Shown piece after piece: positions 15,186 to 38,377 of a stretch of 44,348 bases of DNA; the stretch's first letter is position 1, and each line of letters begins with the position of its first letter. This DNA is from Oxalobacteraceae bacterium (GTDB taxonomy: Bacteria > Pseudomonadota > Gammaproteobacteria > Burkholderiales > Burkholderiaceae_D). A program made the position numbers and the translations under genes. The DNA lies in NCBI GenBank assembly GCA_027485795.1, contig JAIXQK010000156.1, positions 1 through 44,348 of the forward strand, read 5' to 3'. The notes under the pieces were generated by a model, which saw only the letters and a list, made by a program, of their open reading frames with translations, did not search any database and was not told the DNA's origin.

Positions 15186-15237
15186 GTGAGCGTAAAGTCC
15201 TATACCAAAGCGTTACGCTTTTCCAACAAGGACCGGG

Positions 15238-15266: not shown

Positions 15267-15272
15267 CGATGC

Positions 15273-15551: not shown

Positions 15552-15560
15552 GAGGTTCTT

Positions 15561-23104: not shown

Positions 23105-23323
23105 GGCATACCCCTGATGGTTATAGTTTTGAAAACAAGCGCTCATCGATCGAGAAGACCGACGCGCTGTAATCGTTATACGGGGCGCCTGGCTCAAAGA
23201 GTGAGCTAGCGAATTTGGGAGCAAAAGATTTTGCAGGCTCAGTCAATGAGCCTATGAATCCCTAAACTTTAAAACTATAAGCGTCAAGATTTGATTACTA
23301 ATCTATTAAGGCATTTTTAAACG

Positions 23324-23905
23324 ATGAAGCACTCAACGCGAGAATCTTGGCTAGAAGCCGGCGTAAAAGCGCTGACACCACTTTTCAGTAAGGCGGGGTA
23401 TGCGGTACCTTTATGCAAAGTGTCATGCGGGTTTGCTAGTACGGGCACTAGAAGTGGTCATATCGGCCAGTGCTGGAGTACGAAAGCTAGCGCTGACGGA
23501 CTTAATCAAGTATTTGTTTCGCCCGCCTTGGAAGATGCGGTTGAGGTATTGGATACCTTATTGCATGAGCTGGTGCATGCGGTAGATAACTGTGAGCACA
23601 AGCACGGCAAGGAGTTCAAGAAAATAGCAACCAAGTTGGGCATGGTCGGACCGATGCGCAGCGCAGGCGCCGGGCCAGCGCTGAAAGAGGTATTGAAAGA
23701 TATTGCAGCAAAACTTGGGGCTTACCCGCATGCGCGGTTATCTGTTCCAAAGAAGGCGGCAGCACGAGCGCCGCGGCCGAGGGCGAAATGTGTGCGATGT
23801 GGATTTACGGTTCCGATGCTGCGGGAATTCCTGCATTACGGGCCACCGATTTGCCCGAAAGACCGTATAGAGATGGAAGCGCTAGGAGACTGGGACGCGA
23901 TTTAA
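23324..23905 (+). CDS. SprT-like zinc metalloprotease
   Basis: The 193-residue protein carries the gluzincin motif HELVHAVDNCEHKHGKEF (HExxH, then a downstream His) at about residues 82-99 and a C-terminal CxxC zinc ribbon (CVRCGF, then CPKD). That is the SprT/Spartan layout; Spartan proteases in eukaryotes repair DNA-protein crosslinks and bacterial members are poorly known. It runs tail to tail with a WYL regulator, with one base between stop codons. An AT-rich stretch precedes the ATG and no clear ribosome site is visible. Confidence 0.8.
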   Translation: MKHSTRESWLEAGVKALTPLFSKAGYAVPLCKVSCGFASTGTRSGHIGQCWSTKASADGLNQVFVSPALEDAVEVLDTLLHELVHAVDNCEHKHGKEFKKIATKLGMVGPMRSAGAGPALKEVLKDIAAKLGAYPHARLSVPKKAAARAPRPRAKCVRCGFTVPMLREFLHYGPPICPKDRIEMEALGDWDAI

Positions 23906-23906
23906 G

Positions 23907-24884
23907 TTAGGAGGTGTACTGCTGGAAAGCCGCCTCATGCTCTTTGCGTATTTTGTCCCGAAGGGCTTTAGGAGCGAGGACCTCAACCGCGGCACCATGT
24001 TTGGCAATATCGAGCAGCAGCTCACGGTCATCGGCGTAGGGAAATTCAAGGATATACGCGCCAGACGCATCAAATGAGCCTTTCTGGTCAGGGTGCCAAA
24101 GCTCAGCAGCTACCCAGCGGGCGCGCTCCGGCGTGAATTTGAGCCTGGCAGTATGTTTGGATTCACCGGCGAAGATGCCGTAGCTGGCAGCAAGAAACTG
24201 ATCTAGCGATTTAATAGGCACCTCGATCGCTTTCTTGCCAACAGTTGTGATGGCGCGTATTCCGTCCAGAGAGAAGCCGCGTAGTCCATCACGCATGTGG
24301 CACCAGGCGTCTAGGTACCAGTTGTCGCGGTAGTGGATGAGACGTTGGGGAGAGATTTCTCGAAGGGTGATTTCGTTACTAGCGCGGGCATAGTACTGAA
24401 TTTCGATGCGCTGGCGCTTGAAGAGAGCAACACCCACTTCGGAGAAGAAGTGGCTGCCTTGGACGCGTCGGCCCATTTCCACGAGCTTGATGCGTTTGCG
24501 GATTTCTTTAGATGACGATTCGCCTTCGCCAATGACAGCATCGAGGCGGGAAAGGAAAGGCTGGATATGGGGACCGATGATGCTGCCCTGATCAAGATTC
24601 TCGAGTAGCTGCTGCATTGTGATGAGGGCAAAGATCTCTTGCTCAGTAAACCAAAGACCAGGGAGTGAGAATTTGCTTTTGCTTGAGGTAGTGCTCTCGT
24701 AGCGATATCCCCGAAGGTCAGCGTCGTAGATTACAGGAGCGTTAAACCGATCCCGCATGTACTCGAGATCGCGCTTGAAGGTGGCGAGGGAGACTTCAAG
24801 CAATGAGAGAAAATCGTCGCGACTAACGATTTTTCGATCTTGAAGAAGCTGATCAATTTTATAAAATCGTTCAAGGCGATTCAT
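23907..24884 (-). CDS. WYL-domain transcriptional regulator (YafY type), second copy
   Basis: The 325-residue protein has a winged HTH (LATFKRDLEYMRDRFNAPVI), a WYL core (HYRDNWYLDAWCHMRDGLRGF) and a WCX tail. It aligns along its whole length with the regulator at 10692-11663, sharing blocks such as TFKRDLEY, SPQRL and YRDNWYLDA, so the two are paralogues. It is divergent from the small AT-rich gene at 24900 with only 15 bp between start codons, and convergent with the SprT-like gene. Confidence 0.85.
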   Translation of the reverse strand: MNRLERFYKIDQLLQDRKIVSRDDFLSLLEVSLATFKRDLEYMRDRFNAPVIYDADLRGYRYESTTSSKSKFSLPGLWFTEQEIFALITMQQLLENLDQGSIIGPHIQPFLSRLDAVIGEGESSSKEIRKRIKLVEMGRRVQGSHFFSEVGVALFKRQRIEIQYYARASNEITLREISPQRLIHYRDNWYLDAWCHMRDGLRGFSLDGIRAITTVGKKAIEVPIKSLDQFLAASYGIFAGESKHTARLKFTPERARWVAAELWHPDQKGSFDASGAYILEFPYADDRELLLDIAKHGAAVEVLAPKALRDKIRKEHEAAFQQYTS

Positions 24885-24899
24885 ATTGAAAGGATTATC

Positions 24900-25370
24900 G
24901 TGGATAAAGAAAAAGCAATAAAACTTGGTGATGCAGCCATGAGCCGTGATCCTCGTTTTGCTAACTATGGGTTATTTTCGGGTGGCTCTTTTGTGCTGGA
25001 TTCCGAAAGGGTTTTTATGTGGTTTGAGACAATTCAAGACTTAGTTTTTTTCATAAAAAAGGCTGAGCCACAAATTTTTGAACTTGATGCTGCAGACATA
25101 GAAAATTACGAGAGTAAAATAACCCCTGTTTTAGACAATGTTCAAAGAGACGGATTAACAGACCAATTAAAAAATAAAATAAATGATATTTCAAAAGATT
25201 TTATGGTTATTGAATGGTGGGGAAATTTTTCAGAGTTAGTGGCTAACAAAAGTGAATTCTCAAAAAATCTTATTGAAGATTTTTTTGAGCAGTTTGAGGA
25301 AGAGCCAAAATCGTTAAGCGAAGAACATATGGATTCTTTTGTTGAATTTATACAATCGTATGGCTATTAA
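24900..25370 (+). CDS. small acidic AT-rich protein of unknown function
   Basis: The 156-residue protein (VDKEKAIKLGDAAMSRDPRF after a GTG start) is acidic, with SGGSFVLDSERVFMWFETIQ early and a C-terminal helical stretch (NLIEDFFEQFEEEPKSL). The GTG at 24900 has AAAGGA ahead of it; a longer frame from 24840 would overlap the WYL start codon and is less likely. Its base composition is markedly more AT-rich than its neighbours, a sign of separate origin. No family recognised. Confidence 0.6.
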   Translation: MDKEKAIKLGDAAMSRDPRFANYGLFSGGSFVLDSERVFMWFETIQDLVFFIKKAEPQIFELDAADIENYESKITPVLDNVQRDGLTDQLKNKINDISKDFMVIEWWGNFSELVANKSEFSKNLIEDFFEQFEEEPKSLSEEHMDSFVEFIQSYGY

Positions 25371-25376
25371 AATTTA

Positions 25377-25392
25377 GCAATACTGGTATTGC
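25377..25392. terminator. hairpin between convergent genes
   Basis: GCAATAC (25377-25383) and GTATTGC (25386-25392) pair perfectly around a 2-nt gap, with AAATT/AATTT flanks that extend the stem. It lies between the ends of the 24900 gene and the Hsp70-like gene and probably terminates one or both, although no long T run is present. Confidence 0.4.
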
Positions 25393-25438
25393 AATTTGAT
25401 AGGCGCCTTAGCTAAATTTGCAAAACGATCGACAAAAT

Positions 25439-26758
25439 TTAAAGTGGCGTTGAAAGTGACCGTATTTTAGGTTGCTGCATCTCAGTGCTGGGCCAGTCCG
25501 CAGCTGGCGTGGTGCCGCCTAATGCAACTGCCATACGAGCGCGCGATGCATCAACTTCAAAACCTCTTGGTGTAGTCACCTCGGTCTGTGATGAAGTTAA
25601 CTGTGTATCGCCCATTGCGACAACACTGCCGACAATTTTTCTTAAGAATTGAAGATTTGCGCCACCGCCTGCGAAAACCACATCGAGATGAGAAATTCCG
25701 TGATTTGAAGTCTGAAGTTGTGTTTTAAACTGGGAAGCCGCGTCCTCAAGCATTTCTTTGATTGCAGCTTTTAAACCCGCCGCCATTTTTTGGAGTTTGT
25801 CTGTGCGAACGAGTTCTTCTCGCGAAATTTGTACATTTCGGAAAACCAGACTGCCCGTCTCGAAAAGCGTTTCTTTGGATCGGCGAATATCATTTTTCAG
25901 TACTAAAAGATCAACGCTGCCATTTTGGCCGAGTCTTTTTGTGACTAATTTTATTAGAGCGTCGTCGATTTCATCGCCCGCACCGAACAAGCTACGTGCA
26001 GGTGTCATCGGGATAAGCTTTCGAGTCACCTTCGAATAGTCATCTGGCAAAACAGACACAAATAGACCGAGGTCGATAGTGCCCGCACCAACGTCCACCA
26101 CTAAAGTTGCGCTACGGTTGTTTGGGGAGGGATCCGGAAGTAACTCAAGCGCAGCAGCGACAGGTTCTTCAACGTCTACATCGAAAGTTAGTTTTCCAGA
26201 CGTTTGACTTACTTTTTTATACCAGTGCATAAACTGATCAGTACTCATCTCATGGGTTATCGCTGTCCCATTAGCGCTGAATGCAATATGGCTAAGTTGA
26301 TCGTAAATAGAGGCTATTCTTTGTCGATCCGAGGTGCTCCAGACGGGATGACTTATGCGAAATGAGAGAGTGTTGGTTTTTACCTTAAAAATATGTTTAG
26401 CTGCCACTACGGAATCTTGTACTGCTACCGCCAGTAAACCAGCGATTAGTTGAAATCGCGAGAAAGGTGCGCGACTCACTTCCGACTTATGTACCTGAGA
26501 GATGTTTGTTGGACTGAGCCAGGATTTCGGGCTTGATTCAAAAAGCAATCGTGGCTGGGCAGTGAGACCTGCCTCAAGTGCTTTGACACCAAAAAAAATC
26601 TTGTCGCCAGCAATTGGAATAAAGATAGCGCTAGGAATAGATGCATTATCAATTTGGCTTCCTGGCGCAATTGGAAGCGGATGCGACACCGAATCCTTTT
26701 GTCTACGTATTGCGGCTCTAATAGAACTGGTCCCGAAATCAATGCATAGAGCGTCCAC
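25439..26758 (-). CDS. Hsp70-like (ASKHA) ATPase without substrate domain
   Basis: The 439-residue protein has the actin/Hsp70 nucleotide fold: phosphate-1 loop IDFGTSSIR (6-14), the connect motif EEPVAAALEL (197-206), phosphate-2 loop VVDVGAGTIDLGLF (220-233) and the adenosine motif VVFAGGGANL (around 355). The length equals an ATPase domain plus a short tail, so the substrate-binding domain and lid of DnaK are missing. A GTG start at 26758 has AAAGGTGA upstream, 11 bp after the partner gene. It cannot be the housekeeping DnaK. Without a DnaJ or GrpE neighbour, the 449-residue protein upstream is the likely partner. Confidence 0.85.
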   Translation of the reverse strand: MDALCIDFGTSSIRAAIRRQKDSVSHPLPIAPGSQIDNASIPSAIFIPIAGDKIFFGVKALEAGLTAQPRLLFESSPKSWLSPTNISQVHKSEVSRAPFSRFQLIAGLLAVAVQDSVVAAKHIFKVKTNTLSFRISHPVWSTSDRQRIASIYDQLSHIAFSANGTAITHEMSTDQFMHWYKKVSQTSGKLTFDVDVEEPVAAALELLPDPSPNNRSATLVVDVGAGTIDLGLFVSVLPDDYSKVTRKLIPMTPARSLFGAGDEIDDALIKLVTKRLGQNGSVDLLVLKNDIRRSKETLFETGSLVFRNVQISREELVRTDKLQKMAAGLKAAIKEMLEDAASQFKTQLQTSNHGISHLDVVFAGGGANLQFLRKIVGSVVAMGDTQLTSSQTEVTTPRGFEVDASRARMAVALGGTTPAADWPSTEMQQPKIRSLSTPL

Positions 26759-26769
26759 AAAATCACCTT

Positions 26770-28119
26770 TCAGTTCACTGGGAAGACCAATGCACGAGTC
26801 AGAACTCTTTGGGAATTATCGCTTCTCGTTAAGGTAACGCCAGGTATTTCAATTCGGACGTTATTGGGTGGTTGGGAGCTGCTATCTCCAAGGAAATGTT
26901 GAAGCGGTTGATACGGAACTAAATCGCCTTTTGATCCATACATTTCTATTTTCGCTTTGCTGGCAACTAGATAAATTAAAGAGTTCACTTCATTTGCGAC
27001 AGACTGATCCGGGAGATCGGAGCAGTACCGATACCAAGAAATTAAAAGGGCTGCTATCTGTTCTTGAATTCCAGAATGAGCAGATAGTTCATCGCTACCT
27101 TCAATCGAAGGATCTTTTGTCGGAAAAAGGATGGCTTTAACTAGCTCTCGATCGGATATGAATTTTGCCGAAGCTTTTTCTATTGGTAAGCAATGAGAGG
27201 CGAATTCCAAAAGCTGTCTGACCTCGGCAGTATTGTTCATTCCATACATTTTTACGTGCTGTAGTAAGATACTGACTATTCGAGAGCTTAGAGGGTAAAG
27301 ATTTTTTTGAAGCAGTTTTGGTAAACCTCCAGGTTGCTTCGAGAGGATTGTTAGGCCCTGAAGAGTTTTTTCTCTAAGCAGTACTGTCGGCTCGCGAGAA
27401 CTTATCGTTTCTAAAATCCCGAACGTAGATTTTTGAATTTCGATAATGACTTTCGAAGAAGAGTGATTTTTTTGACTAAGGTCGACTACCGACGAAGCCA
27501 AATCACAAAACTCCTCCTCAAAATAACCACCTGATTCGATTTCGCGCGATGGCAATAACTTAGCTACTGATTTGAGTACTTGATTAACGTGATCAAGATC
27601 GGTTGTTTGCTCCGCCCGAATTATGCTCGACAGTTCCTTGACTAAATCAGCATATGTAGTGCTGGACGCGATGGCTAATTTTACGAGTTCGTTGGCAAGT
27701 GCTTTGCTTGTTTGTGTATTTATTGCTTCTCTCAGGGCATAAGAAATCTTCCAGCTTGCTTTTAATGGTCCAAAAAGTTTGATAGCACCAATCCGCTCGT
27801 CATCGTTAGCTAAGGTGTTCAAAGCGGGTGGAGCAGTATCAATCCACCGTAGCGGTCGGATTTTTTGCTTGGCTGCAGACTTGCTTCCTTTAACTATCGC
27901 CAAACCAATAAGCCCTAGACACTGATACGCAAGTACTTCATCGGTTTCTTTTTGAAGTTTTATTGCAAGCAGATTCACCTTCCGATCGATTTCCTCAGCG
28001 AACTTTTGGTCAATCTTTTTTTTGCTCAGTGGTAGCAGCGTTCTCAATATAGCAATAATTTCAGCGGTCTCGGCTTCATTGCTGGCTGGTGTATTCGAGG
28101 GTGGGACAAATGTAGTCAT
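26770..28119 (-). CDS. large helical protein paired with the Hsp70-like ATPase
   Basis: The 449-residue protein is not recognised. It is predicted by eye to be almost wholly alpha-helical (ALANELVKLAIASSTTYADL, LLREKTLQGLTILSKQPGGL and similar amphipathic runs), suggesting a HEAT-like scaffold, and ends with a beta-rich tail (VRIEIPGVTLTRSD) of about 50 residues. It has no catalytic motif, membrane segment or signal. It is the first gene of a two-gene minus-strand unit with the Hsp70-like ATPase 11 bp downstream, divergent from the PLD-helicase operon. Confidence 0.7.
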   Translation of the reverse strand: MTTFVPPSNTPASNEAETAEIIAILRTLLPLSKKKIDQKFAEEIDRKVNLLAIKLQKETDEVLAYQCLGLIGLAIVKGSKSAAKQKIRPLRWIDTAPPALNTLANDDERIGAIKLFGPLKASWKISYALREAINTQTSKALANELVKLAIASSTTYADLVKELSSIIRAEQTTDLDHVNQVLKSVAKLLPSREIESGGYFEEEFCDLASSVVDLSQKNHSSSKVIIEIQKSTFGILETISSREPTVLLREKTLQGLTILSKQPGGLPKLLQKNLYPLSSRIVSILLQHVKMYGMNNTAEVRQLLEFASHCLPIEKASAKFISDRELVKAILFPTKDPSIEGSDELSAHSGIQEQIAALLISWYRYCSDLPDQSVANEVNSLIYLVASKAKIEMYGSKGDLVPYQPLQHFLGDSSSQPPNNVRIEIPGVTLTRSDNSQRVLTRALVFPVN

Positions 28120-28265
28120 TTTGGTATCGATTTGTGCGCCATAACCCCATCATTATCGCTATAAATCTCAGACTTAGCGAACGGCGGTGTTTTCATAAAG
28201 ACAATACTTTGAGGCTGCGTAAAAATCTGATGATGCTTTGAACCTGGATCATTCTTGCATACCGA

Positions 28266-28284
28266 AGGCTCATCAAATGAGCCT
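28266..28284. promoter_or_regulatory. perfect inverted repeat in the divergent control region
   Basis: AGGCTCAT (28266-28273) and ATGAGCCT (28277-28284) are exact inverted copies with 3 bp between them. The repeat lies 30 bp before the -35 box of the rightward promoter and 147 bp before the leftward start codon. No T run follows, so an operator is more likely than a terminator. Confidence 0.5.
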
Positions 28285-28314
28285 CTGCGCTTCTATGCTC
28301 GGCTCTGGGTTAGA

Positions 28315-28343
28315 TTGGACAAATCTTTCCTGCCATCTAATAT
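28315..28343 (+). promoter_or_regulatory. strong candidate sigma70 promoter of the PLD-helicase operon
   Basis: TTGGAC (28315-28320) and TAATAT (28338-28343) are separated by exactly 17 bp. The transcript would first cross the dead HTH gene and then the helicase. Confidence 0.6.
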
Positions 28344-28371
28344 ACTGAAAGTGATATTTTTTGGGAAAGCG

Positions 28372-28548
28372 ATGGTGGCTAAGTTGCCGGCTACCGCCTA
28401 GACCTTTCGAGACGTTACCGAATTCCTCAAGTTAGAAGAGAAGACGATTTATCGACTCGCTCAAAAAGTAAATCTGCTCGGGTTAAAGGTCGCAGGTTCT
28501 TGGCGGTTGAAGTGACCAGACCTCGATGTTTGGATTGCTTATCCCTAA
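28372..28548 (+). pseudogene. dead excisionase-like HTH regulator
   Basis: Read in frame from ATG 28372, the product is a small MerR/excisionase-type HTH: DVTEFLKLEEKTIYRLAQKV, then GLKVAGSWRLK, then PDLDVWIAYP before the final stop. Two in-frame stops break it, TAG at 28399 near the N-terminus and TGA at 28513 where family members carry a basic residue. Genes of this type often precede restriction or defence operons as small regulators. Stop-codon readthrough is possible but less likely than decay. Confidence 0.75.
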
Positions 28549-28604
28549 ATTCAGGCATCGGGTGGCACGCGACCTGAAGTCCTAAGCTAAACCTCAAAAA
28601 AACT

Positions 28605-31600
28605 ATGCCAAGAATATTCGACAACATTGAAAAGCAACTCCTTCCCGCGCTAGAGGAGACAATGAAGGTTGCTGAACGCGCCGACTTCTGTGTGGGCTAC
28701 TTCAATTTGAGAGGTTGGAGGCATCTGTCGCCGCATGTTGAAAAATGGGACGGTGGCGATGGCAATTGCTGCAGATTGCTGGTTGGAATGCATGTATCCC
28801 AAAGCGATGAGCTAAGGCATTCGCTACGCCAACGTGAGGACGATGATGGCCTAGATAATCAGACGGCAGTTCGTGAAAAACGCCGTATTGCAGAAGAGTT
28901 CAAGCAGCAATTGACGTTCGGTGTGCCGACAAACGATGACGAAGCTTCACTTCAGCAACTGTCCAATCAAATCAGAAGCAAGAAGCTGGTTGTCAGGGTC
29001 TACCTGCGTCATCCCCTGCACGCAAAACTCTATTTACTTCACCGAAACGATGCAAACAATCCGGTCACAGGATTTTTAGGGAGCTCGAATTTGACCCTGG
29101 CTGGCTTGGCTAAGCAGGGCGAACTCAATGTCGACGTCTTAGAGCATGATGCATGCAACAAGCTAGTCGATTGGTTTGAAGATCGATGGAAAGATCGATG
29201 GTGCGTCGATATTTCAAAGGAGTTGGCCGACATCATTGACGAAAGTTGGGCTGGTGAGCGACTTATTCCTCCGTACCATGTCTATTTAAAGATCGCTTAT
29301 CACTTGGCGCAAGAGGCGCGCGCTGGACTCTCCGAATTCACGATTCCAAAAATATTCGGCAAAGAGCTTTTTGATTTCCAGGTTGCGGCGGTAAAGATTG
29401 CTGCCCACCATTTGAATAAAAGGGGCGGAGTGCTCATAGGCGACGTCGTCGGTCTGGGCAAGTCAATGATGGCAACTGCGCTTGCCAAGGTTTTTGAAGA
29501 AGACCATCAAACCGAGACGCTGATCCTTTGTCCTAAAAACCTGGTTCCAATGTGGGAAGACTACGTCTTTCGCTACAGACTTCAAGCCAAAGTTCTTTCG
29601 CTATCGAAAACAATGGCAGAGCTGCCAGAAAAGACACGTCGCTACCGGGTCGTGTTGGTTGATGAATCGCACAACTTGCGCAACAAAGAAGGCAAGCGCT
29701 ACAAGGCAATCCGGGAATACATAGAGCGGAACGACAGCCTATGCATTCTTCTGTCTGCCACTCCGTACAACAAAACATACATTGATCTCTCATCGCAACT
29801 CTCTTTGTTTCTCAGAGAAGATGCCGACATTGGTATTCGGCCAGAGAAGTTAATTAGCCACCTCGGCGGAGAGCATGAATTCATTCGACGGCATCAGTGT
29901 GCAGTACGATCGCTTGCAGCTTTTGAAAAGAGTGATGATGCAGACGATTGGCGCGACTTGATGCGCCTCTACATGGTACGCCGTACACGAGGCTTCATCA
30001 TGCAGCACTATGCAAAAAGCGATGAACGTGGGAAGTACCTGCTGTTCCCAGATGGAACTAAATCGTATTTTCCGAAGCGAATCCCTAAAAATTTGAAGTT
30101 CTCTATCAAAGGGGCAGACAGGTCAGATCCTTACGCGCGCTTTTACTCAACGACAGTGGTCGACGCTATCAACGCCTTGGCATTGCCCCGATATGGGCTG
30201 GGTAATTACGTCGCAAACAATCCAAAATCACCCCCAACACCAAATCAAGCGCATGTCATTGAGGGCCTTTCGCGTGCAGGCACACGATTGATGGGATTTT
30301 GCCGTACGAATTTATTCAAACGACTCGAAAGCGCAGGCCCCGCCTTTTTACTCTCAATTGAGAGACATGTCTTGCGAAACTTTATCGTAATGCATGCGAT
30401 TGAAAATGGTCTGGATATCCCATTGGGCACACAGGGGGCCGAACTCCTGGACACCCAAACACACGATGAGGATCCAGACGATATTTTGGCTGGAGCGGAC
30501 GATGAAGAAGAATCAGGCGATCAAGAGGTCGTAACCAACATAATAACGTCCCTGCGCACAGAGGATGCCTTCCGTGCCCGTGCCGCCAAAGCGTATCAGG
30601 CTTACTCGGGGCCTTTTAAGAAGCGCTTTAAATGGCTGCCTAGCTCTTTGTTCATGGACGATCTATTTAAGGACTTGCAGGCAGATGCACTAAGCCTCAT
30701 GGCTGTTTTGCAACATTGTGGCGACTGGGATCCAGCCAGAGATTCAAAACTCGCCGAGCTAGCAAAATTGGTTCGCACCACACATAGCAAGGAGAAAATT
30801 TTAGTCTTCACACAATTCGCCGATACCGCGCGCTATGTAAAGACTCAATTGGCTGCAATGGGCGTTAAGCAAATCGAAGACGCAACTGGAAACACAGGTG
30901 ACCCTACCAGCCTTGCCTGGCGATTCTCACCAGAATCAAATAAGAAGCTGGACACCATCAAATCAGGCGATAGGCTGCGCGTATTGATAGCCACCGACGT
31001 GCTCTCCGAAGGCCAGAACCTTCAAGATGCGCACATAGTCGTTAACTACGATTTACCTTGGGCCATCATCAGACTTATTCAACGCGCTGGTCGTGTAGAC
31101 CGAATTGGTCAAAAGGCGGATGAAATTTTCTGCTACTCATTTGTTCCGGCAGATGGCGTTGAGACCCTACTTCAATTGCGAGCCCGTGTTCGCAAACGCC
31201 TCAAAGAGCAAGGCGAAGTAGTTGGATCCGATGAGACCTTCTTTGATGACGAAACAAACGAGCAATCCATACGAGATCTGTATACCGAAAAGAGCGGAAT
31301 TCTTGATGACGATGGGGATAACGAAGTGGACTTGGCTTCTTATGCCTACCAAATCTGGAAAAACGCTATAGATGCAGATCCCGCTATTGCCTCGACCATC
31401 GAAGCCATGCCTGATGTCGCATACGCCACCAAGGCTCACGTCGAAACGCCAAAGGCCCCGAAGGGAGCCTTGGTCTACATGCGTACTGCGCAGGGCAATG
31501 ATGCGCTGGCTTGGATTAATGGAGCTGGCGAGTCAGTCACGCAGTCACAACTGACAATCTTGCGTGCAGCAGCATGTGCTCCCAATACCGAAGCACTGCC

Positions 31601-31997
31601 ACGCACTGAACATCACCATTCCCTTACACAAAAGGGCTTGGCGCACATTATTCAAGAAGAGAAATCATTTGGCGGTGCTTTGGGGCGTCCGTCTGGAGCT
31701 CGTTTCAAGACCTACGAACGAATCAAGCGTTACCGCGATAAATTAGGAAATGCTCGGGATCTTTTTATTACGGATGAGCATGTAAGGCGAATCGAACGAA
31801 CGCTGGAGGATATTTACAGATTCCCCCTGTACCAGACAGCGACTGACACACTGAATCGCCAAATTAAAACAGGCCTTGCAGACCAGGAGTTGGTTGATCT
31901 CGTACTTTCATTGCGAGAAGACGGTCGCCTGTGCTTGATAGATGAACAAGAAGCCAATCGAGAATCCAAGTTGATCTGCAGCATGGGCTTGGCTTGA
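28605..31997 (+). CDS. PLD-nuclease-like / SNF2-type helicase fusion
   Basis: The 1130-residue protein has an N-terminal phospholipase D-like domain (1-200) with one HxKxxxxD motif (H139, K141, D149) and GSSNLT (159-164), then an SF2/SNF2 helicase: Walker A GDVVGLGKS (K286), DESH (353-356), LLSATPYNK (382-390), and the RecA2 motifs FTQFADTARY, TDVLSEGQNLQ and QRAGRVDRIGQ. A single HKD motif implies the nuclease works as a dimer. The layout resembles translocases of DISARM (drmD) and related restriction systems. The MTase frame overlaps its stop codon or starts 26 bp later. No obvious ribosome site precedes the ATG. Confidence 0.88.
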   Translation: MPRIFDNIEKQLLPALEETMKVAERADFCVGYFNLRGWRHLSPHVEKWDGGDGNCCRLLVGMHVSQSDELRHSLRQREDDDGLDNQTAVREKRRIAEEFKQQLTFGVPTNDDEASLQQLSNQIRSKKLVVRVYLRHPLHAKLYLLHRNDANNPVTGFLGSSNLTLAGLAKQGELNVDVLEHDACNKLVDWFEDRWKDRWCVDISKELADIIDESWAGERLIPPYHVYLKIAYHLAQEARAGLSEFTIPKIFGKELFDFQVAAVKIAAHHLNKRGGVLIGDVVGLGKSMMATALAKVFEEDHQTETLILCPKNLVPMWEDYVFRYRLQAKVLSLSKTMAELPEKTRRYRVVLVDESHNLRNKEGKRYKAIREYIERNDSLCILLSATPYNKTYIDLSSQLSLFLREDADIGIRPEKLISHLGGEHEFIRRHQCAVRSLAAFEKSDDADDWRDLMRLYMVRRTRGFIMQHYAKSDERGKYLLFPDGTKSYFPKRIPKNLKFSIKGADRSDPYARFYSTTVVDAINALALPRYGLGNYVANNPKSPPTPNQAHVIEGLSRAGTRLMGFCRTNLFKRLESAGPAFLLSIERHVLRNFIVMHAIENGLDIPLGTQGAELLDTQTHDEDPDDILAGADDEEESGDQEVVTNIITSLRTEDAFRARAAKAYQAYSGPFKKRFKWLPSSLFMDDLFKDLQADALSLMAVLQHCGDWDPARDSKLAELAKLVRTTHSKEKILVFTQFADTARYVKTQLAAMGVKQIEDATGNTGDPTSLAWRFSPESNKKLDTIKSGDRLRVLIATDVLSEGQNLQDAHIVVNYDLPWAIIRLIQRAGRVDRIGQKADEIFCYSFVPADGVETLLQLRARVRKRLKEQGEVVGSDETFFDDETNEQSIRDLYTEKSGILDDDGDNEVDLASYAYQIWKNAIDADPAIASTIEAMPDVAYATKAHVETPKAPKGALVYMRTAQGNDALAWINGAGESVTQSQLTILRAAACAPNTEALPRTEHHHSLTQKGLAHIIQEEKSFGGALGRPSGARFKTYERIKRYRDKLGNARDLFITDEHVRRIERTLEDIYRFPLYQTATDTLNRQIKTGLADQELVDLVLSLREDGRLCLIDEQEANRESKLICSMGLA

Positions 31998-32023
31998 TCA
32001 CGTGCATAACAACAAAGATAAAA

Positions 32024-35000
32024 ATGACCATAGACGCCGCTCAATTTCAAAAACTCCTGAATGAGTTTCAACTTAGCCGCTTATTTGTCAATGAACTTGG
32101 CTGGGACAAACCCAACCTGCGGGAACAGCCTGTACCGGTCAATGGTCATACCTTCACGTTAACGCAAGTTGCACACAAACGCGGTGTCGCTGTGTTTATG
32201 TGCTCACCAGATGCCTTGGGGTCTGTTCCACCTAGAGCTACGCTCCTGAAAATAGAGAAAGAGGCTACGAAGCTGTCTTATGAGCATTTACTAATTTTCA
32301 CCGATACTTCTCAGAAAGTAATGACCTGGCTATGGGTAGCTCGCGTCCCTGGCCAACCAGCAGCCACCAGAACCCACACGTGGCATAAAGGTACCAGCGG
32401 CGAGGCATTACGCCAAAAGCTAAATCAAATCGTCTGGTCCCTTGAAGAGGAAGAGGCTATTACTCTGACCGACGTCATCAAGGGCTTGCGTAGCGCCTTT
32501 GATCGTGACCGTGTTTCGAAGCGCTTCTATGACCACTTCAAGACCGAGCACCAAGCTTTTTCAGATTTCATTGAAGGTATAGATTCCGAGACGGACCAGG
32601 CTTGGTACGCCTCGCTGATGCTTAACCGCCTAATGTTTGTGTATTTCATCCAGCAAAAAGGCTTTCTGGATGGCAACCCAAACTATCTTTCGGACCGAAT
32701 GGAAGCAGTGCGACAGCAGGCAGGTAAAGGCAAGTTTCATACCTTTTATCGCCAGTTCCTTCGTCGCCTTTTCCATGAAGGACTGGGGCAACACAAAAGG
32801 ACTCGTGTCACTGATCTGTCAAAGCTGATCGGTGACGTGCCCTACCTTAACGGCGGACTTTTCGACGTGCATGAACTCGAGGTTGCCAACCCCGACATCG
32901 AAATCCCAGACGAAGCCTTTCAGCGCCTTTTTAAGTTTTTTGATGCTTACGACTGGCACCTTGACGACCGGCCGCTGTCTTCGGGCAGCGAGATCAATCC
33001 AGATGTGCTGGGCTACATCTTTGAGAAGTACATCAACCAGAAGCAGATGGGGGCGTACTACACCAAAGAGGATATCACCGAGTACATCAGCAAAAACACC
33101 GTCATCCCTCACCTGCTTGATCAGGCACGGGAGCGCTGCAAAGTAGCCTTCGAGGGCGATTTATCCGTCTGGTCGCTACTTAAAACCGACCCAGACCGCT
33201 ACATATACCCCGCGATGAAAACCGGTGTAATAGACCCCAAAGGCCAACTGGTGCCAGTCGCTTTGTTGCCCGATTTCGTGCAAACGGGCATGAACGATCC
33301 AAAGGCGCGTATGTTCGAGCGCCGCTATAACTTGGGGGAGGCCGTCTTCCACATTACATCCTCGAATGGCCAAACACAGCGAGGCACGCTGCCCACAGAA
33401 ACTTGGCGCGAGTATGTGGATCGCCGCAGCCGCTGTATAGACGTTCGCGACAAGCTAACGAATGGAGAGGTAAAAAGCGCAGACGACCTCGTCACGCTTA
33501 ATCTCGACATCCGTCAGTTCATGCAGGACGTGATCGACAACTGCACTAGCCCTGATCTCTTACGCGCTATTTGGCAGGCCATTGTTGGGCGCGTGCCGGA
33601 GCGAGCCAACGAAAAATTCCGCCACGGCATCGCTATCCTTGACCCTACGTGCGGCTCGGGCGCCTTTCTGTTCGCCGCGCTCAACGTTCTCGAACCGCTC
33701 TACGAAGCTTGCCTAGACAGAATGGAGGGCTTTGTAGAGGATGCGAAAAAGCTCGGCAAACCGGGCGAATCCGATTTCATAAAAGTATTGGAGGAAGTCG
33801 GGCACCATCATTCGCGCAGCTACTTCATCTACAAAAACATCATCTTGCACAACCTATTCGGCGTGGACATCATGGCCGAAGCGGTTGAAATCTGTAAGTT
33901 GCGCCTATTCCTTAAGCTGGTGTCGCAAGTTGACGCCGGACGGGAACTGGAACCCCTGCCCGACATCGACTTCAATATTCGTGCTGGCAATACGTTGGTC
34001 GGCTATGCAACAGAGTCGCAGTTCGACTCAGCGAACACGCTTGCCAGTGACCAGACTCATCGGGCCGAAATTAAGGCCAGCACCGCTGACCTGGCTGATG
34101 CCTTTGATTTCTTCCGGCAGCAGCAGACCGTACATGGCGGCAAGGTCACACCTGATGATAAACGCAAGCTGCGCGACAAGCTGAATGGCCTGAGCCTAGA
34201 ACTGGATCGCTACCTTGCTCAGGACTATGGTATCAACCCGCAAAATATTGATCAGTTCACTGCCTGGCGCACCAGCCACCAGCCTCTTCATTGGTTCGCC
34301 GAGTTTTATGGTGTGATGCGTGATGGTGGCTTCGACGTAGTGATTGGAAATCCACCATATATAGAAATACACAAAATCGACGATTATCAAATTAGAGCAG
34401 ATTTTAAGACTTTAGACTGCGGCAACCTCTACGCACCTGTTAGCGAGCGCGCAATGCAAATAGGCAATGCTAAAAAAGGGTACTTAGGATTGATTGTGCC
34501 GTTAAGTGTATTTGCTACTGAACGGATGCGTCCCATTCAAAGATTGCTCAATAACGGTAAGGAGTTCCTTGCTTTAAGTCACTTTGATGTTTATCCAAGC
34601 AGGTTGTTTGAAGGAGCAAAGCAACGTCTAACCATAGTCATACGGAGCAATCGCGAAACACCGAAATTCATCACAAGCACATATCAAAGATGGTTTGGAA
34701 CATTTCGAGATCAACTTTTCCAGTCGTTATCCTACGGGCCTGCAAATTACTCACCTAGCGGCGGAAGTTTGGAAAAGATTTCATGTCAGATCCATTCATC
34801 GGTTTTAAATAAACTTCGATCATATTCTGCTGGGTCGATTAAGGAATCACGAGTATCTCCCGGTTTCTATATTCACCGCATTCCATATAACTACGTCAAA
34901 GCGCTAAATTTCGTGCCATTTTTCTGGAATGAGACTGATGGCGAAAAGAAGTCAGAGGACTACAAACCTTATGCGGCAGTTGAATCAGAACTGAATGATT

Positions 35001-35380
35001 CGATAATTTCAGTGCTCAACTCAAACCTCTTTTTTATGTGGTGGCACTCATCTTTCGAAGGATATCATTGCGGAAAGCACGAAATTACTTCGTTTCCATT
35101 AGGAGCAAATAAATTAAGTTCAGCGATCGCCAGTGAACTTAAGACGCTAGCAAAAACCTTAATGTCAGATTTGGAGCTTAACAAGAATCGCAAAGAAGCT
35201 AATTATAAGAAGACGGGTAAAGTTATTTATGATGAATTTTTTCCTAGAAAGTCAAAAACCGTAATAGATAAGATTGATCTGGCGCTGCAGAAGCATTTTT
35301 CGCTGAGTGATGACGAAACAGACTTCATCATCAACTACGACATCAAGTACCGCATGGGCGCAGTTGACGAAGAAGAATGA
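32024..35380 (+). CDS. Eco57I/PglX-like adenine-specific DNA methyltransferase
   Basis: The 1118-residue protein carries the AdoMet site DPTCGSGAF (about 538-546) and the N6-adenine catalytic motif NPPY (about 775-778, VVIGNPPYIEI), preceded by ALGYIFEKYINQKQMGAYYT-type sequence shared with PglX and DrmMI methylases. The N-terminal 300 residues are a conserved non-catalytic domain, and the AT-richer C-terminal 300 residues should recognise the target. The AT rise after about 34340 fits exchange of the specificity region. The start at 32024 (MTIDAAQF) is preferred; TTG 31994 overlapping the helicase stop is the alternative. Confidence 0.88.
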   Translation: MTIDAAQFQKLLNEFQLSRLFVNELGWDKPNLREQPVPVNGHTFTLTQVAHKRGVAVFMCSPDALGSVPPRATLLKIEKEATKLSYEHLLIFTDTSQKVMTWLWVARVPGQPAATRTHTWHKGTSGEALRQKLNQIVWSLEEEEAITLTDVIKGLRSAFDRDRVSKRFYDHFKTEHQAFSDFIEGIDSETDQAWYASLMLNRLMFVYFIQQKGFLDGNPNYLSDRMEAVRQQAGKGKFHTFYRQFLRRLFHEGLGQHKRTRVTDLSKLIGDVPYLNGGLFDVHELEVANPDIEIPDEAFQRLFKFFDAYDWHLDDRPLSSGSEINPDVLGYIFEKYINQKQMGAYYTKEDITEYISKNTVIPHLLDQARERCKVAFEGDLSVWSLLKTDPDRYIYPAMKTGVIDPKGQLVPVALLPDFVQTGMNDPKARMFERRYNLGEAVFHITSSNGQTQRGTLPTETWREYVDRRSRCIDVRDKLTNGEVKSADDLVTLNLDIRQFMQDVIDNCTSPDLLRAIWQAIVGRVPERANEKFRHGIAILDPTCGSGAFLFAALNVLEPLYEACLDRMEGFVEDAKKLGKPGESDFIKVLEEVGHHHSRSYFIYKNIILHNLFGVDIMAEAVEICKLRLFLKLVSQVDAGRELEPLPDIDFNIRAGNTLVGYATESQFDSANTLASDQTHRAEIKASTADLADAFDFFRQQQTVHGGKVTPDDKRKLRDKLNGLSLELDRYLAQDYGINPQNIDQFTAWRTSHQPLHWFAEFYGVMRDGGFDVVIGNPPYIEIHKIDDYQIRADFKTLDCGNLYAPVSERAMQIGNAKKGYLGLIVPLSVFATERMRPIQRLLNNGKEFLALSHFDVYPSRLFEGAKQRLTIVIRSNRETPKFITSTYQRWFGTFRDQLFQSLSYGPANYSPSGGSLEKISCQIHSSVLNKLRSYSAGSIKESRVSPGFYIHRIPYNYVKALNFVPFFWNETDGEKKSEDYKPYAAVESELNDSIISVLNSNLFFMWWHSSFEGYHCGKHEITSFPLGANKLSSAIASELKTLAKTLMSDLELNKNRKEANYKKTGKVIYDEFFPRKSKTVIDKIDLALQKHFSLSDDETDFIINYDIKYRMGAVDEEE

Positions 35381-35892
35381 AGACTGCAATCATCACCTCG
35401 CATGATCTCTGTACCCTGCGTGTCGGGCCTGAAAATGACGCGCGAATAGTGGGCGCTGGCGGTGCGGCGCTTCTAGGTGAGCCGCTGCTTGGCCTCGTCG
35501 CCTCCCGAGAATGCCCCGGCAATGTCTTGCTTGCAACCCTCGAGCGCGTCCCGCAGTGGGTCAAGGCCGGTCGCGTAATCGTCAGTGGCTTCCACTCACC
35601 GCTCGAACAGCAAGTGCTCCGCTCACTGCTTCGCCGCAATGGTCACGCAGTAAAGGTGCTGGCTCGCTGTTTTTCTGCTAGCGGCTATCGCTTAGCCAAA
35701 GAAGAACAAGATGCGTTCGCGAATGGGCGCTTACTCATCATCAGCGCGTTTGGTGCTGATACACCACGAGTTACCCGTGTGTCTGCAATCAAACGAAATG
35801 AATTGGTCATCGCTCTTTCTACGGAAGTTGTGACTCCATTTATTTCTAAAGGCAGTCCCTTGGATGAGTTACTTGCCAAGCACAAAGCTTAA
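35377..35892 (+). CDS. DprA-like SLOG-fold protein
   Basis: The 171-residue protein looks like a pared-down DprA/SMF core: GLVASRECPG (like GxVGSR), then AGRVIVSGFHSPLEQQVL (like VVSGLARGID), a central strand RLLIISAF, and SAIKRNELVIALSTEVV, which mirrors the FPRRNRIIAGLS motif. DprA family proteins bind nucleotides or single-stranded DNA, and SLOG relatives serve as nucleotide sensors in defence systems. Its ATG overlaps the methyltransferase stop (ATGA), indicating translational coupling and a role in the same complex or pathway. The winged-helix domain of true DprA is missing. Confidence 0.7.
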   Translation: MKTAIITSHDLCTLRVGPENDARIVGAGGAALLGEPLLGLVASRECPGNVLLATLERVPQWVKAGRVIVSGFHSPLEQQVLRSLLRRNGHAVKVLARCFSASGYRLAKEEQDAFANGRLLIISAFGADTPRVTRVSAIKRNELVIALSTEVVTPFISKGSPLDELLAKHKA

Positions 35893-35945
35893 ATCTCGAA
35901 TAGGCTTGACGTGCTTGTACCAAAATGTTTCATAGAAGGGTTTTT

Positions 35946-36236
35946 ATGAGTAATTACAGAAAAATCGTAATAGAAACCTACAGCGGTGCCAGGGAAGGTT
36001 CAACTGGCGCACCGCCTGCCCGACCACTACCAGGACAGGGCTTGGATACAAACTTGAAAGTGGAATGCTCTGGCTCAATGCGACGAAACCATCCCATTGG
36101 GACAAAGTTTTTGATTGAGGCCAAACTCACGGAGGCATATGGCACCTCATTTTTATACTCATCCTATCGATGGAGCTGGAAAATACTGACAAATGCAGAG
36201 GCGGCGAAGCATATTCTGAGCTCAAGTCATACCTAA
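35946..36236 (+). CDS. small hypothetical protein between SLOG and DUF262 genes
   Basis: The 96-residue protein (MSNYRKIVIETYSGAREGST) contains a proline-rich loop (GAPPARPLPGQGL) and a beta-rich remainder (YRWSWKILTNAEAAKHILS). AAGGG precedes ATG 35946; a start at 35925 is also open. It lies 53 bp after the DprA-like gene and 123 bp before the DUF262 gene. No family recognised. Confidence 0.55.
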   Translation: MSNYRKIVIETYSGAREGSTGAPPARPLPGQGLDTNLKVECSGSMRRNHPIGTKFLIEAKLTEAYGTSFLYSSYRWSWKILTNAEAAKHILSSSHT

Positions 36237-36359
36237 TTTGGAATATTTAATCTTGAAACTGTTCAAACACATTTACTTCAAGAGTAGACACTTTGCGCCG
36301 ATTGGGTGATTCAAGTCAACTAGTAGTTTCATTGATTTACGAAATTTTAAGAAATTTAT

Positions 36360-38051
36360 ATGGCCAAAGCAGAAGCATCAGTTGAAGAACTTGTCGGAAT
36401 GATTGAACGAGGCGAGCTGCGTTTGCCTGAGATGCAGCGACAGTACGTTTGGCGCTCCACCAGAGTTCGTGATTTGCTTGACTCCCTCTATCGTGGCTAC
36501 CCCTCTGGGGCGATCTTGCTTTGGGAAACAGATGAAGACGTGCCATTGCAGGTGATGGCAGTTGGCCAACAAAGCAACCCCTACAAAACAACACGATTGC
36601 TTTTGGATGGGCAGCAGCGGCTCACATCACTTTCGGCTGTGATTCGGGGTGAGCCTGTGAATGTTCGCGGCAGAAAGCGCCCGATTGAAATTCTTTTCAA
36701 CCTTGAACACCCCAACGAGCTTCAGGGCTTCATGGAAATCAATGAGGAAAGTGACGTTGATGACACCGAGCCCGATCAGGAGGACGCTTCTGAGGATGAA
36801 CTCCAGCAGCGTTTTAACCAAATGACCTTCGTTGTGTCGACCCGCAAGTTGGAAAGTAGTCCGTGCTGGGTCAAAGTATCAGAAGTTTTCAAGAGCACCA
36901 GCAACACCGAATTCCTCAAACGGGCTGGAGTGCCCTCTTTTGATGACCCTCGTGCAGACCTTTATGGGCAGCGGCTTGATCGTCTTAGGGCCGTAAAAAA
37001 ATATGTTTACCGCATGGACGTTCTCGAGCGGACGCTTTCGTATGACGAGGTTACTGAGATCTTTGTGCGCGTCAACTCACTTGGCGCAAAGCTTCGAAGC
37101 TCGGATCTTGCGCTGGCCCAAATAACGGCAAATTGGAAAAACTCACTTCATACCTTTCAAGCCTTCCAAGGCAAATGCAAAGAAGTCGGATTTGACCTTG
37201 AATTGGGTATCCACTTGAAGAATATGGTGGCAATGGCCACTGGACAATCTCGCTTCAAGACGGTGAGCTCGCTTGACATCACCCGGCTTCAAAAAGCGTG
37301 GAGTGAAGCATGCGAAGGCATGAACTTCGCCATGAATTTTCTCAAGAACAACGTCGGTATTGACAGCCCAGCCTTGCTGTCTTCGCCGTTCATGGTGGTG
37401 GCCATTTCGTATTTCGGTCACAAGCGCAACTACCAAATTTCAGCGGATGAGTCCAAGTTACTGCGGTATTGGGTGCTGGCAGCAAATGCCAAAGGCAGGT
37501 TCTCGCGCGGTTCTAGTGAGACGTTGCTCGACCAGGACATTGCTTCGATTCGAGATGGGGGCACCATCCAGGACCTGATAGACCGCCTGCGCTCACAGGT
37601 TGGCAGGCTCGAAATTTCCCCTGAGGAGCTATCTGGTAGAAACCAGCGTAGTGCATTGTTCAAAACCATGTTCTTGGCCTTCCGGTCGGCTGGCGCAAAA
37701 GACTGGCATTCCAATCTGACGATTGCACTTGACCACAATGGCGTTCAACATCTCCTTCAGTTCCACCATATTTTCCCAAAGGCTGTGCTCACCAAGGCGG
37801 GCGTGATTTCGCGAGAGGCCGACGATATAGCCAACTTGGCCTTCATTGGTGGCAAGACCAACCGAGTCATCAGCGACAAGCCACCAAAAGAGTACCTTGC
37901 CTTTTTTGCAGCAAAGAGCGGCGAAGAGGGGTTCAGCGTCCAAGAGATACCGCTTGATCCAGAGCTGCTCGACACCCCCGCCTACAAGAAGTTCCTTGAA
38001 GTGCGTCGTGAACGAATCGCAACCAGGCTCAACGTGTTCATCACCGGCTGA
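36360..38051 (+). CDS. DUF262 / HNH protein, GmrSD-like
   Basis: The 563-residue protein has an N-terminal DUF262 domain (about 5-230) with LRLPEMQRQYVWR, YPSGAILLWET and LLDGQQRLTSL, the ParB/sulfiredoxin-like NTP-binding site of GmrS, and a C-terminal HNH-like region (about 460-520) with FHHIFPKAVL and NLAFIGGKTNR. GmrSD enzymes cut glucosylated-hydroxymethylcytosine phage DNA, and BrxU is a similar single-chain member. The same-strand position after the helicase, methylase and SLOG genes suggests an added nuclease arm, but the 123-bp gap allows separate transcription. Confidence 0.85.
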   Translation: MAKAEASVEELVGMIERGELRLPEMQRQYVWRSTRVRDLLDSLYRGYPSGAILLWETDEDVPLQVMAVGQQSNPYKTTRLLLDGQQRLTSLSAVIRGEPVNVRGRKRPIEILFNLEHPNELQGFMEINEESDVDDTEPDQEDASEDELQQRFNQMTFVVSTRKLESSPCWVKVSEVFKSTSNTEFLKRAGVPSFDDPRADLYGQRLDRLRAVKKYVYRMDVLERTLSYDEVTEIFVRVNSLGAKLRSSDLALAQITANWKNSLHTFQAFQGKCKEVGFDLELGIHLKNMVAMATGQSRFKTVSSLDITRLQKAWSEACEGMNFAMNFLKNNVGIDSPALLSSPFMVVAISYFGHKRNYQISADESKLLRYWVLAANAKGRFSRGSSETLLDQDIASIRDGGTIQDLIDRLRSQVGRLEISPEELSGRNQRSALFKTMFLAFRSAGAKDWHSNLTIALDHNGVQHLLQFHHIFPKAVLTKAGVISREADDIANLAFIGGKTNRVISDKPPKEYLAFFAAKSGEEGFSVQEIPLDPELLDTPAYKKFLEVRRERIATRLNVFITG

Positions 38052-38266: not shown

Positions 38267-38377
38267 ATGGAACACAACCGTAACAGCGAATTACTCGCAG
38301 AGTTAGCGCAATTCACAGGCACACAGGGCTACAGTCGTATCACCCGCAAGCACCTGCTCACAGATGGCGCAAGTTGA
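38267..38377 (+). pseudogene. N-terminal fragment of a DUF6876-type protein
   Basis: From ATG 38267 the frame reads MEHNRNSELLAELAQFTGTQ then GYSRITRKHLLTDGAS before a stop. The LxQFTGTxxYxR...LLTDG pattern is, to my recollection, the opening of the small DUF6876 family found on plasmids and islands. The rest of that gene is missing and the DNA passes directly into a HigB tail in another frame. Confidence 0.6.

Follow-up and report, generated by a model that had tools for sequence, protein, structure and literature searches.

The window analysed here is the whole 44,348-nucleotide stretch from an Oxalobacteraceae bacterium. All seven open reading frames described in the earlier note were confirmed (Table 1), and the 485-bp gap between the divergent genes is real. 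Two genes, encoding an Hsp70-type ATPase and a 449-residue partner, face a run of genes encoding a PLD-SNF2 nuclease-helicase, a methylase, a DprA-like SLOG protein, a small protein and a DUF262/GmrSD-type protein. The analysis supported the view that these genes look like phage defence.

Table 1. Positions of genes and candidate regulatory features in the window
Feature	Position	Strand	Match or remark
Two palindrome copies upstream of the SprT-like gene	23190..23253		23190-23208 (3 mismatches), 23235-23253 (exact)
SprT-like metalloprotease gene, part of the hot spot's conserved frame	23324..23905	+	Pfam SprT 5.2e-5, 23.5 bits
wHTH-WYL-WCX regulator (BrxR/CapW type), proposed island repressor	23907..24884	-	Pfam WYL 1.8e-17, WCX 6.9e-16
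Hsp70-type ATPase domain without substrate-binding domain (PDC-M61B)	25439..26758	-	439 aa; PADLOC PDLC04731 1.8e-35
449-aa partner (PDC-M61A)	26770..28119	-	PADLOC PDLC04730 6.4e-11
Exact palindrome AGGCTCA-N5-TGAGCCT between both arms, proposed WYL operator	28266..28284		
Decayed HTH_17 regulator gene, in-frame stop, start estimated	~28369..28536	+	~85 bp from palindrome
PLD-SNF2 nuclease-helicase	28605..31997	+	PADLOC C3a139 'HKD+Snf2' 8e-50
Eco57I/PglX-type N6-adenine methylase	31994..35380	+	Pfam Eco57I 2e-24; PADLOC REase_MTase_IIG PDLC03628 4.5e-284
DprA-like SLOG protein	35377..35892	+	PF02481 1.4e-8; start overlaps methylase stop
103-aa protein, no family	35925..36236	+	no match
DUF262/GmrSD-type protein (HEC-05)	36360..38051	+	GmrSD_N 8.6e-29; HEC-05 9.4e-50

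The ATPase and its partner match PDC-M61, a two-gene candidate system of PADLOC. The ATPase matched PDLC04731 over its length (residues 4-416 of 439, model positions 125-556 of 588, 120.7 bits), and a three-sequence profile compared with solved structures gave a DnaK ATPase domain as the best match (E 5.8e-5), in agreement with its earlier description as Hsp70-like. In contrast to the family model, it lacks about 120 N-terminal residues of the 588 positions. The match of the partner to PDLC04730 was weak (39.7 bits, residues 46-236); the A-family match is supported by an alignment with a strong PDC-M61A member, L046. This locus, in genome G449, carries the full distant pair (7.6e-233 and 2.4e-173); through its own strong matches to the family (772 and 575 bits) it links window A and B to PDC-M61, with identities of 19% for A and 28% for B. 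The partner gene adjoins the ATPase gene, 11 bp upstream of it, and the order is A then B, as in PDC-M61. A literature search outside the preprint servers found no paper on PDC-M61 by name.

Weak C-terminal matches to MamK, MreB and Alp7A raise the alternative that the pair has no part in defence, in which case the ATPase would be a cytoskeletal or partition protein of the actin-like ParM/MreB/Alp7A type, with the partner as adaptor. This appears highly improbable, since DnaK ATPase domains were the best solved-structure matches with MreB far behind, the PDC-M61B match spans nearly the whole protein, and the L046 pair lies beside recBCD-like genes on a 69.8-kb contig. A likeness of the last 50 residues of the partner to the C-terminal domain of GrpE, a nucleotide exchange factor, was seen by eye and rejected, as profiles gave no support: the hhalign probability was 0.2-0.4%, three C-terminal pieces of the partner had no Pfam match, and no GrpE protein was among the 40 matches listed in a permissive hmmsearch. 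The reverse search, with no A protein among the 25 weakest matches listed, says little.

On the opposite arm, the PLD-SNF2 helicase and the methylase form a self-contained putative restriction-modification module. The former resembles the HKD+Snf2 or PLD-helicase restriction enzymes (PADLOC C3a139) in that a PLD nuclease is fused to an SNF2-type motor, with the active-site motifs conserved in an alignment of 10 sequences; the window differs from these enzymes in having an Eco57I/PglX-type methylase next door. The methylase matched PDLC03628 (REase_MTase_IIG) over its full length (residues 12-1123), its motifs are kept in 11 aligned sequences, and the alignment suggests that translation probably starts at ATG 32024 rather than TTG 31994. 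Because inspection by eye of the N-terminal domain in this alignment showed no conserved PD-(D/E)xK nuclease site, as sought for a type IIG enzyme, the protein was classified as a methylase partnered with the PLD-SNF2 nuclease and not as a type IIG enzyme. The 103-residue protein had no match in Pfam, PADLOC or one further search.

SauUSI and CglI/NgoAVII are mechanistic relatives of the PLD-SNF2 protein. SauUSI is described as a nuclease-motor enzyme that recognises a methylated target, and in CglI the nuclease and the motor are described as two proteins (PMC7913695 / PMC5737866). Type-2 BREX-related systems, as described in PMC12839542, share an HKD nuclease-SNF2 helicase effector and an N6-adenine methylase with the window, but their core has DUF499 and a standalone DUF3780, neither of which was reported for the window proteins in profile searches. 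For DISARM, no DrmB or DrmC was among the PADLOC matches listed (the best 25 of 46 for the helicase, the best 25 of 44 for the methylase and all for the other proteins); the sole Drm matches among them were DrmD, DrmA and DrmMI, local to the helicase core or the methylase. For BREX, sought as brxC and pglZ beside pglX, no BrxC or PglZ was among the PADLOC matches listed. The earlier statement that the combination matches no named system may thus hold literally, in that no single model was seen to cover the whole set, but it applies to the juxtaposition only, as separate PADLOC models cover the parts (PDC-M61, HKD+Snf2 C3a139, REase_MTase_IIG and HEC-05).

The two arms were separable in the loci examined. 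Besides the window, 13 loci contained a whole helicase gene, and the methylase gene follows it in 12 of them and as a fragment in the other. Downstream of the methylase, 4 of the 13 have a SLOG relative (directly in L035, L037 and L083, after two further genes in L036), and DUF262 genes occur in two, downstream in L087 and upstream in L041. The Hsp70-like pair was present in none of the 13, where the sequence upstream spans only 467 bp in L040, about 3.1 kb in L035 and about 4.5 kb in L087, so that a remoter pair would be missed. L084, cut inside the helicase (421 of 1130 residues), was left out of the count, the partial L085 and L086 (29% and 25%) were dropped, and L051 and L094, whose helicases (25-31% by pieces) belong to a different subfamily, are not part of it. 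Among plasmids, 101 records had a helicase match; the match spanned 80% or more of the query in 21 of these, and 6 were inspected.

One close relative of the pair (L044, 86-87% identity) was found by scanning for six patterns of 8 residues each, a method that detects close relatives only. There, the pair with its WYL and SprT genes faces a BREX system, whose brxA, brxB and brxC genes (PADLOC 8.5e-104, 1.7e-80 and 0) occupy the position of the helicase operon, while SprT, WYL, both pair genes and the palindrome region are kept at 74-88% DNA identity. This partner swap was seen once only, and the MAG concerned may carry a wrong order label. The plus-strand module proteins had no match at 1e-3 in L046 (15 kb fetched, one side cut by the contig end), L057 or L058. 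In L057, an A gene stands beside Abi_2 with no recognisable B, which counts against a strict pair. At 1e-3, relatives of the ATPase were absent from 72,556 plasmid and 50,697 phage records and relatives of the partner from the 72,556 plasmid records; viral contigs contained no relatives of the pair. The PDC-M61B model matched 33 of 398 genomes. Outside the window's own genome the matches were partial, spanning about 190 of the 588 positions at the most with E values of 2.6e-8 or weaker; as ordinary Hsp70-like genes give such matches, they were not counted. With the own genome included, B was found in 2 of 294 genomes of the family and A in 3 of 399 genomes of the order. The 398-genome draws of the phylum gave the helicase in 4 and the pair in 1, with the window's own genome in both.

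These distributions bear on the earlier proposal of one undescribed system, in which the helicase, methylase, SLOG and DUF262 proteins would act together with the Hsp70-like pair as their sensor or assembly arm. Despite the divergent arrangement over one palindrome-bearing control region and the position of the pair opposite a DNA-modification system (BREX) in L044 as well, we consider this integration very unlikely: the helicase-methylase module occurs without the pair in 13/13 other loci examined, the pair occurs without the module in L044 and L046, and the two differ in distribution in the phylum draws. On the few pair loci available, the pair is thus found beside unrelated genes, which the earlier note itself had set against its proposal. 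The pair may alternatively be a general accessory that assists whichever DNA-modification system docks opposite, for example by ATP-driven holding or releasing of complexes. Both copies of the subfamily with known surroundings (window and L044) face a methylase-based system or BREX, and in L051 the WYL gene and the HTH_17-like gene have another, different member of the Hsp70 family between them. The two copies are, however, of one lineage only, and the L046 pair has no module proteins within the fetched sequence. Such a role is therefore unlikely in our judgement.

The WYL regulator gene, which the earlier note left unmentioned, is a conserved neighbour of the divergent genes. Its product is 87-92% identical in L044, L051 and L052, in which the SLATFKRDLEYMRDR stretch is identical. 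The adjacent SprT-like gene, whose Pfam match falls just under the cut-off, was found in 4 of the 21 genomes of the genus, own genome included. The cargo beside SprT-WYL varies: genome G583 has dynamin/PLD, Hsp70, an HTH_17-like gene, HKD-Snf2 and a type III methylase, and G441 has a different cargo again. The wHTH-WYL-WCX architecture is that of the BrxR/CapW repressors described from BREX, CBASS and defence islands, which are likewise located among diverse defence systems (PMC9122601, PMC9122589, PMC9122588).

The perfect inverted repeat reported in the divergent gap is real and beyond chance. The window contains 10 matches at up to 2 mismatches, both strands counted, versus 0.55 expected, and 0 of 100 shuffles reached that number. 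Some of the sites counted in the window and in related loci fall within the coding sequence of WYL (position 24063 of the window and its counterparts). In the 3.24-Mb assembly, the exact palindrome is confined to two places, both at this locus. When spacers of 3-7 were allowed, exact matches across the assembly were still limited to two places (2 forward and 2 reverse matches), and the pattern read backwards gave 1 forward and 2 reverse.

The palindrome recurs at matching places in hot-spot relatives. Pairs spaced 44-45 bp precede SprT also in L044 (9983/10027) and L052 (18120/18164), and L053 has a pair (1691/1736) about 600 bp before the SprT frame; near SprT in L051 there is no better site than one with 3 mismatches, and the site of L094 likewise has 3. 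A copy lies about 85-90 bp ahead of the HTH_17 gene or its remnant in the window, L044 and L051. In G875, a genome of another family, the palindrome lies 168 bp before the A gene (longest frame). Sites with up to 2 mismatches were found in 4 of 4 loci with WYL homologues of G875 and G762, a number reached in 0 of 1000 simulations; three of the four are 92-96 bp ahead of the WYL gene, and the site in L097 is past its 3' end, not before it. No site at up to 2 mismatches was present in the 13 other helicase loci, L046 or L057. Outside the hot-spot and pair loci, 534,758 bases of other loci contained 0 exact, 1 one-mismatch, 0 two-mismatch and 10 three-mismatch copies.

We regard AGGCTCA-N5-TGAGCCT as a candidate operator of the neighbouring WYL regulator because its spacer is that of published BrxR sites, whose half-sites are 5 bp apart (PMC9122601, PMC9122589). 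In the window, a wHTH-WYL-WCX protein stands near defence genes and a palindrome of this spacing near the candidate regulated genes. The half-site is unlike the Acinetobacter site printed in PMC9122589, and the window also differs from BrxR/CapW in having its palindromes at SprT and at the junction with the cargo. In the upstream gap of the WYL gene (24885-25438), no copy of the palindrome was found even with 3 mismatches allowed; if the WYL gene of the window is autoregulated, this would have to go through the pair's promoter. One L044 copy extends into a longer stem, as might be expected if the repeat were an ordinary terminator or REP-type hairpin and the shared control accidental, but a sequence found at only two places in the assembly is not a dispersed repeat, and it precedes unrelated genes about 85-96 bp from HTH_17 or WYL starts and accompanies WYL genes in two other genomes. 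The hairpin explanation is accordingly unlikely, and it looks as if both divergent arms share one control region, as the earlier note had proposed, and one genetic switch.

The seven genes are probably at least two separate anti-phage modules side by side and not one new immune machine. We think it likely that the locus is a WYL-controlled defence hot spot with exchangeable cargo, in which at least two independent modules flank one control region. In the scheme that we infer from sequence, the hot spot would be anchored by SprT and the WYL-domain regulator, with the window as one occupant. The WYL protein would bind the palindrome near promoters, keep the cargo repressed and release it on infection. 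Module 1 (HEL449-ASKHA) would be the PDC-M61 pair, and our best guess is that the pair may act as an ATP-driven switch that senses infection via the partner. In module 2, the restriction-modification system, the methylase would mark host DNA, and the PLD-SNF2 protein, probably a dimer, would travel on unmodified DNA with ATP and cut it with the PLD nuclease, broadly like SauUSI and CglI. The SLOG and DUF262 proteins may be optional add-ons to module 2.

A more far-reaching reading, which we hold to be unlikely, is that the SprT-WYL-palindrome frame is a docking site that swaps modification-based defence systems, while the Hsp70-type ATPase pair stays in place and cooperates with whichever system arrives, all under a single WYL switch that senses phage. 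If true, the locus would be an immune cassette of exchangeable content whose ATP-driven helper is fixed. For the hot spot as we read it, the gene list becomes a testable regulatory claim, with a 19-bp candidate operator, a named regulator and defined target promoters. The uncharacterised PDC-M61 pair gains a natural swap experiment, as it faces BREX in one of two genomes and a PLD-SNF2 system in the other. The locus is also a reminder that genes of a defence island may be neatly arranged in divergent arms without forming one system.

The divergent gap holds further features. The single strong promoter that the earlier note had described there was not confirmed; the promoter scan showed two 9-of-12 sites, versus 0.9 +/- 0.9 in shuffles. 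The HTH_17 remnant in the gap and the palindrome repeat at 23235-23253 were not reported in that note. The remnant shares 47% identity over 45 aa (E 1.7e-9) with the intact copy before brxA in L044 (HTH_17 4.8e-17). It may be a BREX leftover, but HTH_17-like genes also precede the HKD-Snf2 operons in L051 and L094, the latter gene being a weak match.

The seven open reading frames described in the earlier note were all present as described (see table). That note had placed an Hsp70-like pair (A, the 449-aa partner protein, and B, the ATPase; PADLOC candidate PDC-M61) in a single system with the plus-strand helicase operon. Sequence comparison indicates instead that the pair and the helicase-methylase are probably two modules. 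The pair stands opposite BREX genes in L044 and was found in none of the 13 other loci examined that hold a whole helicase gene (tblastn, 1e-3). The DNA of L044 matches the window across SprT, WYL, B and A, and the match runs up to the outer edge of an inverted repeat (window 28284). Past that edge, an HTH_17 gene followed by brxA (8.5e-104), brxB (1.7e-80) and brxC (0) replaces the helicase operon. This swap counts as a single event, since the pair has a single known close relative.

Features of the window, with PADLOC matches
Feature	Position	Strand	Match or location
PLD-SNF2 helicase		+	C3a139 'HKD+Snf2', 8e-50
Eco57I-type methylase		+	REase_MTase_IIG, 4.5e-284
DprA-like SLOG protein		+	
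103-aa protein without family		+	
DUF262 protein		+	HEC-05, 9.4e-50
B, Hsp70-type ATPase domain	25439-26758	-	PDC-M61B, 1.8e-35
A	26770-28119	-	PDC-M61A, 6.4e-11
Palindrome	23235-23253		before SprT
Palindrome	28266-28284		between the two arms
Weaker palindrome copy	9940-9958		67 bp ahead of first gene, second WYL operon

The 13 helicase loci came from six plasmids, four viral-collection contigs and three genomes. The helicase was followed on the same strand by a methylase gene in 12 of them and by a methylase fragment in one (L043); in L040 and L042 the match to the window methylase was partial. A SLOG relative was located downstream in four loci and DUF262 nearby in two (tblastn, 1e-3). Small genes separated helicase and methylase in the cyanobacterial plasmids L038 and L041, where a VapC-type toxin gene is annotated in between (L038:15707-16120; L041:15693-16106). 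In draws of 398 genomes from the phylum, B was detected in one and the helicase (E <= 1e-100) in four, own genome counted in each; shared handles suggest that both draws comprised the same genomes.

Nine of ten aligned helicases retained the PLD motifs HxK and GSSN, L043 being the exception, and all ten retained the SNF2 motor motifs GDVVGLGK, DES[HQ] and QRAGR[VI]DR. Eleven aligned methylases retained DP[TA]CGSGAF and NPP[YW], and no PD-(D/E)xK motif was seen by eye in their N-terminal domain, suggesting that the PLD domain is most likely the nuclease and the methylase the self-marker. The mode of action may resemble, by analogy only, that of SauUSI, described as a nuclease-motor dimer able to shred DNA (PMC7913695), or CglI, whose nuclease and motor are described as separate cooperating proteins (PMC5737866).

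The DnaK ATPase domain match of B ran to profile position 377 of 440, leaving no space for a substrate domain, as the earlier note had claimed. Its top solved-structure matches were DnaK ATPase domains (E 5.8e-5, three-sequence profile). For A, the Pfam search gave no family above cut-off; a GrpE-like C-terminus received no support in profile tests. When the genome collection was scanned with six short patterns, an approach that reaches close relatives only, a single relative of B came up, in L044 (86% identity). A distant pair in L046 (PDC-M61 model scores of 772 and 575 bits) adjoins genes whose translations, on inspection, look recB-, recC- and recD-like. L058 carries a third A gene (41% identity), with the initial residues of a B gene before the contig end. 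A fourth A gene, without a recognisable B, adjoins Abi_2 in L057 (L057:6644-8942; PDC-M61A 1.9e-118, Abi_2 3.4e-55).

The inverted repeat, AGGCTCA-N5-TGAGCCT, is the most informative feature of the locus. The copy noted earlier between the arms is one of two places that match AGGCTCA-N(3-7)-TGAGC[CT]T in the assembly (3,239,000 bases, 183 contigs, 95% complete), both within the window; the pattern read backwards, as a control, gave one forward and two reverse matches. The positions are retained in relatives. Palindromes lie between A and HTH_17 in L044 (5236 and 5287), ahead of an HTH_17-like gene in L051 (6939), in pairs ahead of SprT in L044 and L052, and farther upstream in L053. In L058, from another family, a site lies 168 bp ahead of the longest-frame start of the A gene. 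Markov simulations at <=2 mismatches reached the observed count, which takes in one copy within WYL coding sequence, in 0/200 runs for the window, 0/400 each for L044, L051, L052 and L053, and 4/400 for L058 (0/400 at one mismatch).

The control region holds what reads as a decayed HTH_17 gene: window 28402-28536 contains an in-frame stop and encodes a stretch 47% identical to the intact 77-aa protein of L044, whose gene is directly ahead of brxA. HTH_17 relatives also precede the HKD-Snf2 operons of L051 (63% identity) and, as a weak match (45% over 33 aa), of L094; the helicases of L051 and L094 belong to a different subfamily from that of the window. In the window, in L044 and in L051, about 85-90 bp separate the palindrome from the HTH_17 start. 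All three loci thus share the frame SprT-WYL, cargo, palindrome-HTH_17, cargo, but differ in the cargo itself.

SprT was present in 4 of 21 genus genomes, own included. Functions of the locus genes are predicted from homology. Past WYL, G583 (source of L051) has dynamin/PLD, two genes without family, Hsp70 and another without family, then the HTH_17-like gene, HKD-Snf2, DUF4391 and a type III methylase. The genes at L051:3341-15879, between WYL and the type III-like HKD-Snf2 operon (a dynamin-PLD-like MIT_C fusion, Hsp70 and three without family), are possibly another undescribed defence module. The G441 cargo comprises a 1499-aa helicase-like protein, a partial second WYL copy and a 2066-aa protein, with an HKD-Snf2 helicase and methylase-like neighbours farther along. 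At L052:8936-15543, a 1499-aa helicase-like gene is flanked by two WYL copies, the partial one 80% DNA-identical to the window WYL gene, a pattern that would fit insertion or duplication of cargo by recombination at WYL. In G516 the contig ends inside WYL.

The SLATFKRDLEYMRDR stretch was identical across four hot-spot WYL proteins and was replaced by SKATFKRDLEYLRDR in the second WYL protein of the window; we take this stretch to be the DNA-recognition helix. At 1e-10, four of six genomes searched, including G449 (source of L046), had no WYL homologue, and G875 and G762 (sources of L058 and L057) had two each (42-51% identity). All four of these WYL loci carried a site at <=2 mismatches, about 92-96 bp ahead of the WYL start in three and directly past the 3' end in L097. 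Such a site was reached in 10-13 of 1000 simulations for single loci and in 0/1000 for all four jointly. At <=2 mismatches the palindrome was absent from the 13 other helicase loci, L046 and L057. We infer that the palindrome is a putative operator of the WYL protein, because sites accompany WYL loci, the 13 other helicase loci have none, and the 5-bp spacer is that of published BrxR sites: BrxR proteins are described as binding 10-11-bp half-sites 5 bp apart (PMC9122601, PMC9122589), and CapW as binding promoter palindromes (PMC9122588).

The second WYL-led operon (window 9940-15881) has a palindrome-like site at 9940, a 219-aa gene without assignment, WYL (10692-11663) and a 1162-aa protein matching AAA_12 helicase, RNase_H_2 and, weakly, PDDEXK (PADLOC MkoA, 3.1e-49). 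At window 38332-38759, an apparent HigB toxin gene end followed by HigA was read by eye; G000:C2:108504-108886 holds a copy with 89% identity, and L051 a similar stretch near SprT. An 863-aa UvrD-type helicase is encoded at 40232-42823 (best PADLOC match C3a187 'NERD+UvrD', 8e-27) and a transposase-like HTH gene at 43228; the defence island may extend rightward. The L044 contig belongs to a MAG labelled Actinomycetales, yet several kb are syntenic with our own genome, which we guess to be proteobacterial from its appearance, and the bin label may be wrong.
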